Below are positions 23,252-28,980 of a stretch of 41,228 nt of DNA, one piece after another (position 1 is the first letter of the stretch; the number at the start of each line of letters is the position of its first letter). Source of the stretch: Anaerolineales bacterium (GTDB lineage Bacteria > Chloroflexota > Anaerolineae > Anaerolineales > Villigracilaceae); assembly GCA_030824405.1 (NCBI GenBank), contig JAVBXV010000062.1:1-41228 (forward strand), given 5' to 3'. The notes under the pieces are model-generated. The model was not told the DNA's origin and did no database searches. It saw nothing but the letters and a program-made list of their open reading frames with translations. Position numbers and translations under genes: made by a program.

Positions 23252-24262
23252 TTATGTTGACAACCCCTGCCATTGACGAATGGTAACCAGACGTTCTTCA
23301 TGATCTGGCTCGGCATGTGGACTTGGATCATGCGCATCAAACTTAAGCGGAGAGTTGGTCAATGCGCCGAAGACAGCATCTGCACCGTGAGCCACGTTGT
23401 GCGGGTCATACCCGCCTTCCAAAACAAAAATGATCTTTCCAGCGCAATGCTCGTTCGCAAGCTCAACCAGTTTTTTAGATGTCTCAAAAAATCCCTGCGT
23501 AGACATTCCCAAAGAAGTCAGCGGGTCATTCCAATGTGCATCGAAGCCCGCCGAGATGAACAACATCTGCGGCTTGAATTTCTGCACCACGGGTTTGAAG
23601 ATGTCTTCTGCGATCTGCGCGAAAATTTTATCTCCCGCCCGCGGATACAAAGGGACATTCACCAACCGCCCGCGTGCCTGCGGCGCATCATCGATCCAGC
23701 CTGTGCCGGGGTAAATTCCCCATTGATGCGTGGAGATGAATCCGAAGCGCTCGTCATGCAGGCAGGCTTCCTGCGTGCCATTGCCGTGATGCGCATCGTA
23801 GTCAATGACCATCACGCGTTCCATCCCATTGGCAAGCGCTTCCTGTGCGGCGACAGCAATATTATTGAAAATACAAAATCCCATCGAACGATGCGGCTCG
23901 GCATGATGCCCCGGCGGGCGCACGATCGCGAAGGCATTATCGGCATCACCATTCATCACCGCGCGAGTACATTCGATCACGCCGCCCGCAGCCAGCAGCG
24001 CATCTGCGTAGGATGTTTGGGTCACATACGTTGGGGCGTGGTCGATGACAGCCTCACCCTCTTTGCAAACTTCTTCAATTGCCGCGATCAATCCTGGTTG
24101 ATGCACGCGTGCAAGCTGTTCAAGCGTGGCTGGTTTCGCTTCGATCTTTTCCGCGGCAAATAAACCAAGTTGAGGTTCGAGCACATCCAACCTGCCCGGT
24201 CTTTCGGGATGGTCATAATATTGATGAAGCCGCGCAGGGACATAGGTGTAAGCCGTGCTCAC
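23252..24262 (-). CDS. Histone deacetylase/AcuC-family zinc amidohydrolase
   Basis: 336 residues, a single HDAC fold. The catalytic histidine pair is in RPPGHHAEPH (H119, H120). The zinc ligands are D156 and H158 in DYDAHHGNGT and D241 in SAGFDAHW, and the transition-state tyrosine is Y285 in EGGYD. All key residues are present, so the protein should be an active deacetylase, acting on acetyl-lysine, acetylpolyamines or small amides. The start is GTG at 24262, which overlaps the stop of the upstream 94-residue gene (GTGA), with GGGGAG 5 nt before it, so translation is coupled. Confidence 0.9.
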   Translation of the reverse strand: MSTAYTYVPARLHQYYDHPERPGRLDVLEPQLGLFAAEKIEAKPATLEQLARVHQPGLIAAIEEVCKEGEAVIDHAPTYVTQTSYADALLAAGGVIECTRAVMNGDADNAFAIVRPPGHHAEPHRSMGFCIFNNIAVAAQEALANGMERVMVIDYDAHHGNGTQEACLHDERFGFISTHQWGIYPGTGWIDDAPQARGRLVNVPLYPRAGDKIFAQIAEDIFKPVVQKFKPQMLFISAGFDAHWNDPLTSLGMSTQGFFETSKKLVELANEHCAGKIIFVLEGGYDPHNVAHGADAVFGALTNSPLKFDAHDPSPHAEPDHEERLVTIRQWQGLST

Positions 24263-24543
24263 ACAAACTCCCCGCCAATGGCTTGCCGCTCGATCATTTC
24301 ACGTGCAGAAGAAAATTTCAACTCCACTTCCACACGCTGGAAGCACAGCCCGCCGCTGCCCATCAAGACCTTGCGTGAATAATACACTTCGCCATCCCCT
24401 TCATATTCCACGCTCAGGTCGTTGGACAGATCCACACGGCCTTCGATCACCTCTCCGCAGCGTTTACATTTGACATTAAATAGATAGACTTGTCTCTGCG
24501 GCTGTGAAGAAGCACCACCAAAAAGTTTCTGTAAAAAGTTCAT
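24259..24543 (-). CDS. Small conserved zinc-binding-like protein
   Basis: 94 residues starting MNFLQKLFGG. One CxxC pair (VKCKRCGEVIEGRVDL), a later single Cys (GLCFQRVEVEL) and a beta-rich body. I recall similar short proteins in Anaerolineae, with no known function. It is translationally coupled to the deacetylase downstream (overlapping stop and start), which suggests a shared process or complex. SurE lies 74 bp upstream on the same strand. Confidence 0.7.
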   Translation of the reverse strand: MNFLQKLFGGASSQPQRQVYLFNVKCKRCGEVIEGRVDLSNDLSVEYEGDGEVYYSRKVLMGSGGLCFQRVEVELKFSSAREMIERQAIGGEFV

Positions 24544-24617: not shown

Positions 24618-25382
24618 CTAAAATTCCCATTTCTTCAACACGTCCATGGCTTTGTAAAATGTCAAATCCAAATTCAGCGGCGTGATGGACACATAGCCTG
24701 CGCGCAAGGAACCGAAATCTGTACCGGGCTCGTCCACACCCGTGGGCGCTTCACCGCCGATCCAGTAATAGGGCTTGCCGCGCGGGTCACTGCGCACATC
24801 CAACGCGTCACGGTACACACGCAGCCCCTGACGCGTGATCATGAATCCTTTAAGTTGATCCTCTTTCAAATAGGGTACGTTGACATTCAACACCACACTC
24901 TCGGGCAAACCGTCTGCCATCACTTTTTCGGCCACACGCCGTGCAACCGAAGCCGCGCAGGAATAATCCAACGCGCCCTTGTGACCTTCGGGAGAATCCA
25001 GCGAAACGGCGATCCCTTTCACGCCCGCAATGACAGCTTCCATCGCAGCAGTGACCGTCCCTGAGTAGGTGACATCATGCCCAATATTTGCATTGGGATT
25101 AATCCCCGAAACCACCAGATCGATCTGCTCTTCGATCAACCCAAGCAAAGGCAGTGCAACACAATCAGAAGGTGCGCCGTCTGAAGTGAAAGCAGATGAA
25201 CCATCTGCCAGCACAGTTTCACGCACACGCAATGGACGTTCCATCGTTTTCACATGGCCCGAAGCAGACCAGTTTTTATCAGGCGCAAACACGGTCACTT
25301 TGCCCAGCTTACGCATCTCCTGCACGAGAGCAAGGAGCCCAGGTGCAGTCACACCGTCATCATTGGTTACGAGTATATGCAT
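24618..25382 (-). CDS. surE: 5'/3'-nucleotidase SurE
   Basis: 254 residues, full length. The metal site is at the N-terminus (ILVTNDDGVTAPG), with the APDKNWSASGH loop and the conserved SGINPNANIGHDVTYSGTV block. SurE hydrolyses nucleoside monophosphates and short polyphosphates and is linked to stationary-phase and stress survival. It is probably the first gene of a unit with the small zinc protein and the deacetylase-like gene. Confidence 0.95.
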   Translation of the reverse strand: MHILVTNDDGVTAPGLLALVQEMRKLGKVTVFAPDKNWSASGHVKTMERPLRVRETVLADGSSAFTSDGAPSDCVALPLLGLIEEQIDLVVSGINPNANIGHDVTYSGTVTAAMEAVIAGVKGIAVSLDSPEGHKGALDYSCAASVARRVAEKVMADGLPESVVLNVNVPYLKEDQLKGFMITRQGLRVYRDALDVRSDPRGKPYYWIGGEAPTGVDEPGTDFGSLRAGYVSITPLNLDLTFYKAMDVLKKWEF

Positions 25383-25441: not shown

Positions 25442-25470
25442 GCAGGGACACGGCAGCGCCGTGTCCCTGC
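25442..25470. repeat. REP-like perfect palindrome
   Basis: A 13-bp arm GCAGGGACACGGC with its complement and a loop of AGC. It lies between the SurE start and the end of the extended membrane-protein frame. No U-run follows in the minus transcript (AG-rich then CGGGCGGG), so termination by it alone is doubtful. Similar GC palindromes occur at 28989-29015 and 18508-18542. Confidence 0.8.
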
Positions 25471-25476
25471 CAGTCT

Positions 25477-25914
25477 TTATGGAAATGCCATCACGATCAA
25501 AGTCATTGCAATTGCAAACAGGGTGGATTTACCCAGAATTTTCAAAGCCTGCAATCGAACCTGTTTCAACTCGCTTTGATCTTCGATCTCTTCAATCTTA
25601 TTCGTTGTTAGACGTGAACCACGTCCAGCGAGAGCTACTCAGGTTTTATCGCGCCACTGAAAAAAGCCAGAGGCGGCGGCACCAAATAGAAAGAACAATG
25701 GCAGCCGCCAAACCTTGTCCGCACCGATGATAAGCAGAACGGCGAGGATGACGAGGCTGATGACGAACTGGGCAATGCCAAAATTCAATCTTCTGCGCCG
25801 TTCCTTTGGGCTGATATTGGCAATGCAAACTTCATAGTTCCCGTCTTCGCCTTCAGGTGAAAAAGAATCAAACCCCGTGCCGTTACTTGAAAAACTCAAT
25901 CTGTTATTTAACAT
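25477..25914 (-). CDS. Small membrane protein with in-frame TGA: candidate selenoprotein
   Basis: From the ATG at 25914, 91 residues are read to a TGA at 25639-25641: a polar start, ISPKERRRRLNFG, two transmembrane helices, then FFQWRDKT. After the TGA the same frame stays open for 53 codons (VALAGRGSR..., a charged linker, LKQVRLQALKILGK, then a hydrophobic helix IAMTLIVMAFP) to TAA at 25477-25479. In the family as I remember it, the same place reads KTC-VALAARG, so the TGA replaces a cysteine codon. A hairpin just 3' (25609-25627) fits a bacterial SECIS. The reading is Sec92 in a 145-residue protein. Alternatives are a nonsense mutation of Cys or an assembly error. The function is unknown. 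The ribosome binding site lies inside a strong hairpin at 25915-25962. Confidence 0.55.
25609..25627 (-). promoter_or_regulatory. Candidate bacterial SECIS hairpin
   Basis: In the minus transcript GACGUG-GUU-CACGUC forms a 6-bp stem, extended by one G-U and one U-A pair. It begins 11-13 nt after the UGA, and the apical loop starts with G 19 nt after the UGA. Known bacterial SECIS elements sit immediately 3' of UGA, inside the coding region, with G in the first loop positions. Confidence 0.45.
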
Positions 25915-25962
25915 AAGAACGTCCTCTCCCTTTCAGTTTACGAATAGGGTGAGGACGTTCTT
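25915..25962 (-). promoter_or_regulatory. RBS-masking hairpin before the TGA-containing gene
   Basis: AAGAACGTCCTC plus CCCT (25915-25931) is complementary to 25946-25962 with one mismatch. In the minus transcript the right arm contains GGGAGAGG, the only ribosome binding site, and ends directly at the ATG (25912-25914). It would shut translation unless opened. There is no T-run, so it is not a good terminator for the upstream gene. Confidence 0.7.
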
Positions 25963-25982
25963 AACTCATGGTTTTATACCTG

Positions 25983-26903
25983 TTAATTCGGAGCCAAAGC
26001 CAGGATCACTCCATTTTGTGACGGATCATACAACAGTAAACCATCGTCGGTTTTGTTGGAGGCGATGCCAGCCTGATCGACACGTCCAATGACTTCATCC
26101 AATGCCTTTTGATCGGGCAGGTTGACCACGAAATAGCGCAGGCCAACTGCATCAGCAGGAGGAGGCGGCGCACCTGCACCCTGCCAGGTGTTCAAGCCGA
26201 GATGATGATGATAGCCGCCAGCCGAGAGGAATCCCATTTGAAATTCGGTGGCGACGCCCTGCAAATCAAAGCCAATAACGCCGTGATAAAAATCAACAGC
26301 CTCTTGAATATTGCGCACATGCAAATGGACATGTCCCATGCGGGTTTCCAAAGAAATGGGAGCATCCAGACGATCTTCTTCTTTCAAGTGAGTTAACAGG
26401 GCTTCCACGTCCAATGCTTCGCGGCCGTCACTCCAGGAGCCGTCTGTGCGGCGGGTTTCGTACTTGCCGTCTTTCAACGTCCACGAGCCGTCTTCGGGAG
26501 ATTCGCAATACAACTCAATGCCGTTGCCTTCGGGGTCATCGAGGTAGGTGGTCTTGGTCATGATATGGTCGGTGGGAGAATTACGATATTTCAACGCAAA
26601 CAAACGCGCCACCGCCCGCGCCAACTCACGGCGGTTGGGATACAAGACTGCGAAGTGATACAGCCCTGTAACGCCGCGATATTTTTTCAGGTTCGGTTCT
26701 TCGGTCATGCGCAGCAGGTCTGCGCCGCCAGCGCCAAGGCCTGCCTTGTTGCCTTCACGCCAGTGGAGTTGGAATCCGAGTACCTGCTGATAGAACGCGA
26801 TCTGATTTTCCAGATTGGCAACTGTCAACGAGACGTGACCAAGTGTCGTGGAGGGATGAATCGAAAAATCCTGTTTAGCGGGGGAGTTTGTTTGTGTGTT
26901 CAT
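25983..26903 (-). CDS. VOC-family ring-cleavage dioxygenase-like protein
   Basis: About 306 residues with two glyoxalase/VOC halves: TTLGHVSLTVANLENQIAFY at the N-terminus and MGHVHLHVRNIQEAVDFY after residue 190. Metal ligands fit His in GHVSL, His in LYHFAVLYP, and Glu in GIELYCESP in the first half; the second half carries GYHHHLGLN. This pattern is that of CatE/MhqO-type extradiol dioxygenases that open catechol or hydroquinone rings. The ATG at 26903 (MNTQTNSPAK) is chosen; a longer frame would extend into the inverted repeat at 26919-26965. It is the last gene of the operon opposite the TetR gene. Confidence 0.8.
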   Translation of the reverse strand: MNTQTNSPAKQDFSIHPSTTLGHVSLTVANLENQIAFYQQVLGFQLHWREGNKAGLGAGGADLLRMTEEPNLKKYRGVTGLYHFAVLYPNRRELARAVARLFALKYRNSPTDHIMTKTTYLDDPEGNGIELYCESPEDGSWTLKDGKYETRRTDGSWSDGREALDVEALLTHLKEEDRLDAPISLETRMGHVHLHVRNIQEAVDFYHGVIGFDLQGVATEFQMGFLSAGGYHHHLGLNTWQGAGAPPPPADAVGLRYFVVNLPDQKALDEVIGRVDQAGIASNKTDDGLLLYDPSQNGVILALAPN

Positions 26904-26918
26904 TCTTTCTCTCTTGTT

Positions 26919-26965
26919 AACTTGTGATAATGTCATCTTTTTATCAGACGACATTATCACAAGTT
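26919..26965. promoter_or_regulatory. 16-bp perfect inverted repeat before VOC gene
   Basis: Arms AACTTGTGATAATGTC (26919-26934) and its complement (26950-26965), separated by 15 bp. It starts 10 bp past the LUD stop and ends 15 bp before the VOC ATG. No T-tract follows. It could be an operator for separate control of the VOC gene or a processing or stabilising hairpin. Confidence 0.7.
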
Positions 26966-26975
26966 TAATTTCTTC

Positions 26976-27623
26976 TTAAAAACCCAGTTCTTCTTTAACG
27001 AGGATCATCGTGATACGGTTTGGGCGCGACGCACGATTGATGACAAGCACTTGATTGACAGCGGTGCCAACTTTGTAGAGTTGCTGCATATGTTCTTCTT
27101 CAAGAGGGACAACATGTTCCTGAATGCGGCGGAAACCATCATTCAAATCTCTGACAATTTTCTGCGCGCCAACCACCCAGATCACGCGGCCTGCGCCAGA
27201 AGCGTAGGGACCAAGCTGACTGCCCGTGTTGGAAGCGATCAGCACATGACCATCTTCAGTGACGGCGTGGACGCTGCCCGCCGCGAAATCAGGCGCGTTT
27301 ATCATCTTGCGAATTTCGCGGCCTTGCGTTTCGCGATTCATCGCATACATTTTGGGGCGTATGGCATCGAAACGGCCTGACTGATCGATCTCATCTTTTA
27401 TGCCAGTTTGCTCAAGGGTTACGGATGCGCCAAGAAATACTTCGGAGCCTTCGGGAACCAATTCAAGGAACAGACGTTTCGCTTCTACGCCATTTTCAGC
27501 GATCAAGGTCTGAATGCCATTGGCTTCAAGCGCTTTCACAGTGCGCGCAATTTTCTCGTCTGTTGCCAGTTTGGATAATTCTTCAATCGGAGTGATGGCA
27601 AGTTCTTTATTTGTTGTGAACAT
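26976..27623 (-). CDS. LUD-domain protein (LutC/YkgG-like)
   Basis: 215 residues. It has the LUD hallmark SNTGSQLGPYASGAGRVIWV followed by VGAQKIVRDL, and FLGASVTLEQTG earlier. There are no Fe-S cysteine motifs, so it is the short LutC-like form. LUD proteins work in lactate oxidation, but solitary ones occur in many redox operons with unknown roles. It begins 9 bp after the oxidoreductase gene with AAGGA upstream. There is no lutA or lutB here. Confidence 0.85.
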   Translation of the reverse strand: MFTTNKELAITPIEELSKLATDEKIARTVKALEANGIQTLIAENGVEAKRLFLELVPEGSEVFLGASVTLEQTGIKDEIDQSGRFDAIRPKMYAMNRETQGREIRKMINAPDFAAGSVHAVTEDGHVLIASNTGSQLGPYASGAGRVIWVVGAQKIVRDLNDGFRRIQEHVVPLEEEHMQQLYKVGTAVNQVLVINRASRPNRITMILVKEELGF

Positions 27624-27632
27624 AATTTCCTT

Positions 27633-28277
27633 TTATCCAAGGATCTTCAAAGCACTGCCCCAATTGGTGCCGAGGGTGCCCTGTAAAGTGATGTGCAATA
27701 ACTGCATGGCTTCGATCTGGCGGGCGCGGTGCAGAGGGCCAGCATCAATGGCACGCATGCCGCCATCTGTTACCAACTGAGAGACTTTGCTCTTTGCATC
27801 GGCATCATCACCAGCGATGAAGACGTCCAGTTTCTGTCCGCCAGTATCACCAGCCAGGAGCGTGCCTGCGAAAGTGGTATTGAAAGCCTTGACCACATAT
27901 GCGCCAGCGGCAATGGCTTTGGCCAGATCTTCTGCGGAGGAAGAATCAGGCGCGGTGGCGAGGCCGTCGTAAGTGGAGTTCAACGGGTTGGCAATATCCA
28001 CAACGACCTTGCCAGCGAGTTTTGTGCCGAGCTGTTTTGCGATCTCAATGTTGGTGCCGTACCAAACCGCCAGCACAACCACATCACCGAGAACTGCATC
28101 GCCGAGGCTGGCGGCGGAAGTTGTCGCGCCTTTTTTGGCAGAGGCTTTTATTTCTGCAGCAGCCTTTTCAGCTGCTTCAGGATTCGCATCTACAAATGTG
28201 ACCGAGTGTCCGCCTGCAACTACGCGGGTTCCGATACCGCGTCCCATGTTGCCTGATCCGATAATTGTTATGTTCAT
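27633..28277 (-). CDS. NADPH-dependent F420 reductase-like oxidoreductase
   Basis: 214 residues. The N-terminal Rossmann motif is IIGSGNMGRGIG, then VDANPEAAEKA. VVDIANPLNSTYDG and VVKAFNTTFAG are typical of the F420_oxidored/NADP oxidoreductase family. It binds NADP; use of F420 is not assured. First gene of the operon; AAGGAG precedes the ATG and a strong palindrome lies upstream at 28320-28341. Confidence 0.85.
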   Translation of the reverse strand: MNITIIGSGNMGRGIGTRVVAGGHSVTFVDANPEAAEKAAAEIKASAKKGATTSAASLGDAVLGDVVVLAVWYGTNIEIAKQLGTKLAGKVVVDIANPLNSTYDGLATAPDSSSAEDLAKAIAAGAYVVKAFNTTFAGTLLAGDTGGQKLDVFIAGDDADAKSKVSQLVTDGGMRAIDAGPLHRARQIEAMQLLHITLQGTLGTNWGSALKILG

Positions 28278-28413: not shown

Positions 28414-28980
28414 ATGTTGCCTAACCCCGATGAAAAACTGGACCCGCGCGTCAAACGTACCCGCGGCCTGATTCTGAAATCCTTTGAGGATCTCCTCGCT
28501 GAAAAAAACTTCGAAGCCATCTCCGTGCAGGATGTGACCGACAAAGCGCAAATTAATCGTGCCACCTTTTATGCACACTATCAGGATAAATACGTCCTGC
28601 TCGATCATTCCATCAGCCAGATGTTCATGCAGGAGATCGAAAAGCGGACATTAAGTGTTTGCAGTTACAGCCCCGACAACCTGCGGAATTTGATCCTTGC
28701 CGTCTGTGAATTTCTTGCCAACATTCACAGCGGATGCGCCCAGCCGCATCAACAGTTCGAATCACTGGTGGAAGGAACCATCAAAAAAATAGTCTTCGAC
28801 CTGCTTACCTACTGGTTGAGAAACTCCAAAGTCCCAACTGAAATCCCTGCCACCGTTGCCACCTGGGCAATTTACGGTCTGGCCTCACACTACAGCCACA
28901 TGAAAAAACGCCCCACCCTCGAAAAATTCGTGGATGAAGCGTTCCCGCTGGTGGCGGTTAATTTGGAACAGTTTGCGTAA
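28414..28980 (+). CDS. TetR/AcrR-family transcriptional regulator
   Basis: 188 residues. The HTH lies at about 20-65 (LILKSFEDLLAEKNFEAIS, VQDVTDKAQINRATFYAHY). The C-terminal ligand domain (about 80-185) is less conserved and has a Cys pair at SVCSYSP and AVCEFL plus SGCAQPHQ, possible redox-sensing residues. AAAGGAG is 5 nt before the ATG. It is divergent from the F420 reductase-like/LUD/VOC operon and should repress it through the palindromes between the genes; the ligand may be a phenol, quinone or electrophile (inference). Confidence 0.9.
   Translation: MLPNPDEKLDPRVKRTRGLILKSFEDLLAEKNFEAISVQDVTDKAQINRATFYAHYQDKYVLLDHSISQMFMQEIEKRTLSVCSYSPDNLRNLILAVCEFLANIHSGCAQPHQQFESLVEGTIKKIVFDLLTYWLRNSKVPTEIPATVATWAIYGLASHYSHMKKRPTLEKFVDEAFPLVAVNLEQFA

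Follow-up and report, generated by a model that had tools for sequence, protein, structure and literature searches.

A short reading frame in the 41,228-nucleotide stretch of Anaerolineales DNA analysed here (hereafter the window) contains an in-frame UGA codon that is very probably read as selenocysteine (Sec), and the selenoprotein family to which its predicted membrane product belongs is missing from current lists. The frame lies on the minus strand, where it starts with ATG at 25914-25912, meets the TGA at 25641-25639 and ends with TAA at 25479-25477 (Table 1). This confirms the original prediction of a small frame that continues past a TGA for 53 codons, 91 codons preceding it. With the TGA decoded as an amino acid the product has 145 residues and reads MLNNR...FFQWRDKT-U-VALAGRGSR...MAFP; its pre-Sec part carries the Arg-rich ERRRR, and the residues flanking the TGA are RDKT and VALAGRG, as first described. 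The further proposal that this is a membrane protein in which Sec has replaced Cys is supported by Cys-containing homologues, by SelA, SelB and SelD, by the conservation of the frame beyond the TGA and by a hairpin that agrees with the bacterial SECIS model.

Table 1. Features at the locus of the putative selenoprotein gene (window coordinates)
Feature	Position	Strand	Remarks
SurE nucleotidase	24618..25382	-	Downstream neighbour; adjacency to the selenoprotein gene conserved
Predicted selenoprotein gene	25477..25914	-	145 codons with TGA as Sec, plus TAA stop
Post-Sec part, 53 codons	25480..25638	-	VALAGRGSR linker, two short strands, helix 113-143
SECIS-like hairpin GACGUG-GUU-CACGUC	25611..25625	-	+14 to +28 after the UGA
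In-frame TGA, predicted Sec92	25639..25641	-	Column holds TGA or a Cys codon only (~61 genes)
Pre-Sec part, 91 codons	25642..25914	-	Cys30-x-x-N-I motif, ERRRR, helices 36-63 and 73-89
VOC/glyoxalase-dioxygenase family protein	25983..26960	-	Upstream neighbour
LUD-domain protein	26976..27623	-	Neighbour
NADP/F420-type oxidoreductase	27633..28277	-	Neighbour
TetR-family regulator	28414..28980	+	Divergent neighbour

The gene is bordered by two inverted repeats. Directly 5' of the start codon, the arms 25914-25931 and 25946-25963 form an 18-nt inverted repeat (94%) with a 14-nt loop, whose motif GAACGTCCTC has no other copy in the window and which could possibly be a terminator of the VOC gene, an operator or an element of translation control. 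Just 3' of the gene, positions 25442-25470 hold a perfect 13-bp inverted repeat (GCAGGGACACGGC), perhaps a terminator or a small mobile palindrome, which is also found close to the family gene in some relatives (L004, L011, L018).

The evidence that the UGA is a sense codon is comparative. When 61 related genomes were searched, the family turned up in 17 same-genus genomes and in two from other families of the order; class-wide and phylum-wide searches were added later. The gene is patchy, being present in 17 of the 37 genomes of the genus. Every same-genus gene with a match across the site has exactly one TGA, the codon right after DKT. With the later finds in the same genus (G397), in other families of the class (G313, G362, G339, G106, G402 and G274) and elsewhere in the phylum (G499 and G454), the TGA form totals 26 genes in 25 genomes, all with a single TGA in the same column and never TAA or TAG. 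About 35 relatives carry TGC or TGT in this column, the Cys that the original prediction had expected of homologues, and a third residue was never seen there. Cys forms occur in G044, in the f18 genomes, in many f90 genomes and in an Anaerolineales MAG (L028), as well as in a Gemmatimonadaceae MAG (L030) and in a MAG labelled Deinococci (L027). The last of these groups with Anaerolineales sequences, owing either to transfer or to a mislabelled bin. In an alignment of 56 sequences the Sec/Cys column is invariant, as are N33, R42 and Q86, and 55 of the sequences share an N-terminal Cys (position 30-32), the Gemmatimonadaceae protein alone being without it; given this conservation, the N-terminal Cys may be a resolving partner or a metal or substrate ligand. 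Parsimony on the family tree needs at least five Sec/Cys changes; weak branches force no more than one. These sequence comparisons give good support to the reading of the UGA as a sense codon in a Cys column.

G029 has two diverged copies of the selenoprotein gene (L009 and L020), each with a TGA. In G004 (L018/L022, G004:C48:121315-121730) a frame change and a TAG interrupt the family gene ahead of the Sec codon, which points to a broken gene or a sequence error, and in G027 the gene lies on two contig ends (L016 at the end of G027:C66, L021 on G027:C240), only the stretch round the Sec codon being absent.

The frame 3' of the TGA is kept in relatives. Pairwise comparisons of the window gene with ten relatives gave, for the codons after the TGA, dN values of about 0.1-0.55 and dS values of at least 0.8 or saturated, and by this measure these codons are under purifying selection. 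AlphaFold2, run on the alignment, returned a model with a mean pLDDT of 89.5 (94-99 for residues 31-145) and helices at 36-63, 73-89, 93-98 and 113-143. The high confidence of the predicted fold suggests that the residues on either side of the TGA make up a single folding unit, and on the model the product is a three-helix membrane protein. A fold search against the PDB gave no significant match (best E 0.95; VIA-align Z <=7.1, helical bundle).

The hairpin GACGUG-GUU-CACGUC, which had been placed immediately after the UGA, is real and does have G as the first base of its loop, but it starts 14 nt past the codon. According to the bSECIS model, the loop has 3-9 nt with G in one of the first two places, the upper stem has 4-16 bp, the spacing is 16-37 nt and the minimum free energy is <=-7.5 kcal/mol (PMC13188914). 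The window hairpin, with a 3-nt loop starting with G, a spacing of 19 nt and an energy of -11.4 kcal/mol, agrees with all four published constraints, in line with the SECIS-like nature first proposed for it; among the relatives, energies over a 45-nt stretch are -5.8 to -7.4 kcal/mol in a few, and a few have a different best fold there. The single-sequence folding z-score (-1.55) is unimpressive, so that the evidence for the hairpin is comparative. All 26 TGA genes have G at +20 in the loop, followed by U in 21 of them, and the five pairs of the conserved stem (+15..+19 with +23..+27) occur in 97.7% of cells. Double changes fill 21 cells of the stem vs 7.1 in shuffles (none of 500 shuffles reaching as high), and shifting the pairing partners weakens or abolishes this covariation signal. 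The pair +18/+24, in which both bases are third codon positions, is C-G in 13 genes and U-A in 11 (p = 2.7e-6, kinship ignored). All five pairs are present in 23 of the 26 genes, vs a mean of 2.0 and a maximum of 7 in 500 draws of synonymous codons taken from the family's own codon usage, and the stem is paired in only 4 of 35 Cys-form genes. Selection on a SECIS-type RNA hairpin is thus well supported by the aligned genes. The GGUC loop of Escherichia coli fdhF lies at +19..+22, the same position as the GGUU loop of this gene, and the host genome's own SelD gene has a GCA-GGUUC-UGC hairpin after its TGA, also with a GGUU loop.

The original prediction had also called for the Sec machinery, and most of it is present. 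The host genome encodes SelA (G000:C180, 544 bits), SelB (G000:C427, 335 bits) and SelD (G000:C107, 354 bits), the SelD being itself of the Sec type with its own in-frame TGA. The gene for tRNA-Sec (selC), however, was not found over threshold in the host assembly, a fragmented draft of 458 contigs that is 85% complete. The DNA flanking tRNA-Sec in the relative G010 maps to G000:C351:3715-5044, and this contig ends at 5115, about 360 bases short of the expected tRNA-Sec, which would explain its absence from the draft. Of the 36 same-genus relatives searched, 31 have a tRNA-Sec over the curated cut-off; in one of the genomes (G035; L091, contig G035:C161) its gene and the selenoprotein gene share a contig, at a distance of about 8 kb. 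All 23 TGA-form genomes tested (G499 and G454 left out) have SelA and/or SelB over the cut-off, vs nine of the 17 clear Cys-form genomes, eight having neither and one more being too fragmentary (Fisher 3e-4, kinship ignored).

How else could the codon be read? TGA serves as a normal stop in 2 of the 27 window genes, and if it did so here as well, the product would have 91 residues and the downstream frame would be either a small ORF of its own or a remnant in decay. In a remnant one would expect neither a TGA shared by 25 genomes nor a hairpin that covaries. The protein sequence of the downstream frame is conserved between families and even between phyla, and the frame is under purifying selection; it has no conserved start codon, and in all Cys-form relatives it is fused to the upstream part without a stop. 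Termination at the TGA is accordingly extremely improbable. Read-through can be stimulated by hairpins, and programmed or leaky read-through of the UGA could put in Trp or another ordinary residue, the hairpin then being a general stimulator. The column, however, alternates with Cys only and never with Trp in 61 genes, the loop, spacing and energy of the hairpin all fall within the bSECIS model, and each of the tested TGA-form genomes has SelA or SelB, which makes such read-through highly unlikely. As the window stems from a fragmented draft, one may finally think of a sequencing or assembly error concealing a true TGC or TGT. The identical codon is shared by 26 genes from 25 genomes, some of them single contigs (G020 and G025), and this recurrence refutes the error in practice, leaving it a negligible probability. 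Decoding as selenocysteine remains the reading that we adopt in what follows.

Within the genus, the selenoprotein gene usually has a VOC dioxygenase-like gene on one side and surE on the other, and close by lie a LUD-domain gene, one for an F420/NADP-type oxidoreductase and a divergent TetR regulator. The VOC protein, which shows weak likeness to catechol 2,3-dioxygenase, is encoded near the selenoprotein gene in most same-genus loci examined. Some relatives have DoxX-like or DsbA-like genes near the locus, named from reading their sequences, without a model match. Pairs of a VOC dioxygenase and a DoxX-like protein are known from quinone- and thiol-stress loci, e.g., catDE of Bacillus subtilis. 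By association, the recurring neighbours (TetR, LUD, DoxX-like, VOC, DsbA-like and F420-type oxidoreductase) are in keeping with a locus that deals with redox or electrophile stress. We also would like to point out a 94-residue Cys-containing protein at 24259-24543 on the minus strand of the window, which is conserved near surE in six relatives and has no match in Pfam or NCBIfam.

The following mechanism can be proposed. SelB, carrying Sec-tRNA-Sec, would decode the UGA as selenocysteine, guided by the hairpin with its loop about 19 nt downstream, and translation would run on to the TAA. The product would sit in the inner membrane as a three-helix protein, with both the Arg-rich N-terminus and the QWRDKT-U-VALAGRGSR segment probably facing the cytosol, as the positive-inside rule suggests; this orientation would bring Sec92 and the near-invariant N-terminal Cys to the cytosolic surface of the membrane. 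The likeliest function, tentatively put forward from the Cys/Sec conservation and the neighbouring genes, is selenol/thiol redox chemistry at the membrane surface, possibly with Cys30 as the resolving partner; candidate substrates for reduction are lipophilic peroxides, disulfides and quinone-type electrophiles. A bolder and somewhat more doubtful idea is that of a new catalytic scaffold, in which a three-helix membrane protein of non-thioredoxin fold would employ a Cys/Sec pair on the cytosolic face of the membrane and work as a selenol peroxidase, a disulfide reductase or a quinone reductase; within this one family, Sec would have been acquired or lost on several occasions.

If the protein were a divergent member of the YgaP-like transmembrane family (PF11127/DUF2892), its function would be a different one: it would handle sulfur or thiocyanate and have no part in redox defence. 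Those proteins are likewise short and membrane-bound; near their N-terminus an N-[IS]-x-x-[DE]-R motif precedes helix 1, and helix 2 ends in a conserved Cys. Weak matches to PF11127 were obtained in five of ten relatives (E 0.03-9). All of them stay below the curated gathering cut-off of 25.3 bits, however, the best reaching 14.9 bits, and homology is not supported; hhalign aligned only 20 columns with a probability of 1.4%. Furthermore, PF11127 has the motif FCPLY and no third helix, whereas this family has DKT(C/U)V and the third helix. Membership of the YgaP-like family is therefore unlikely.

The absence of this family from existing inventories holds for each source consulted. Neither its Sec forms nor its Cys forms score over cut-off with Pfam or NCBIfam (20.0) models, no fitting family or motif is found among the 119 prokaryotic selenoprotein families of the latest inventory (PMC13188914 Table 1, May 2026), the deep-Sep study contains no fitting selenoprotein family, and the open-licence literature offers no earlier description of selenoproteins from Anaerolineales or Chloroflexota. 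The suggestion of a membrane selenoprotein outside the usual lists is thus supported. The roughly 119 families listed for prokaryotes would gain one more, from a phylum that scarcely figures in that literature, and its members would be small membrane proteins, not thioredoxin-fold enzymes. Standard gene callers would cut every such gene at the TGA, and the last helix would be lost. As Sec and Cys forms exist in related genomes, the benefit of selenium at a membrane surface becomes directly testable.

Membrane proteins in which Sec replaces Cys in part of the members are already catalogued, namely YeeE/YedE (PF04143), MerT-like (PF02411) and the SO_0444 Cu/Zn efflux transporter (NF033936). None of these three family models matches the present protein, and their Sec motifs are GUxSG, C/SxxU and UxC, whereas here it is DKTUV. 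With respect to decoding, the closest parallels are FdhF and SelD of E. coli, of the SelB/bSECIS type, which likewise have a UGA at a Cys column followed by a downstream hairpin with a GGU loop; the distance from UGA to loop is as in fdhF, and SelA, SelB and SelD are encoded in the genome. Differently from these systems, the family described here consists of predicted small three-helix membrane proteins, and not of formate dehydrogenases, SelD or thioredoxin-fold proteins.
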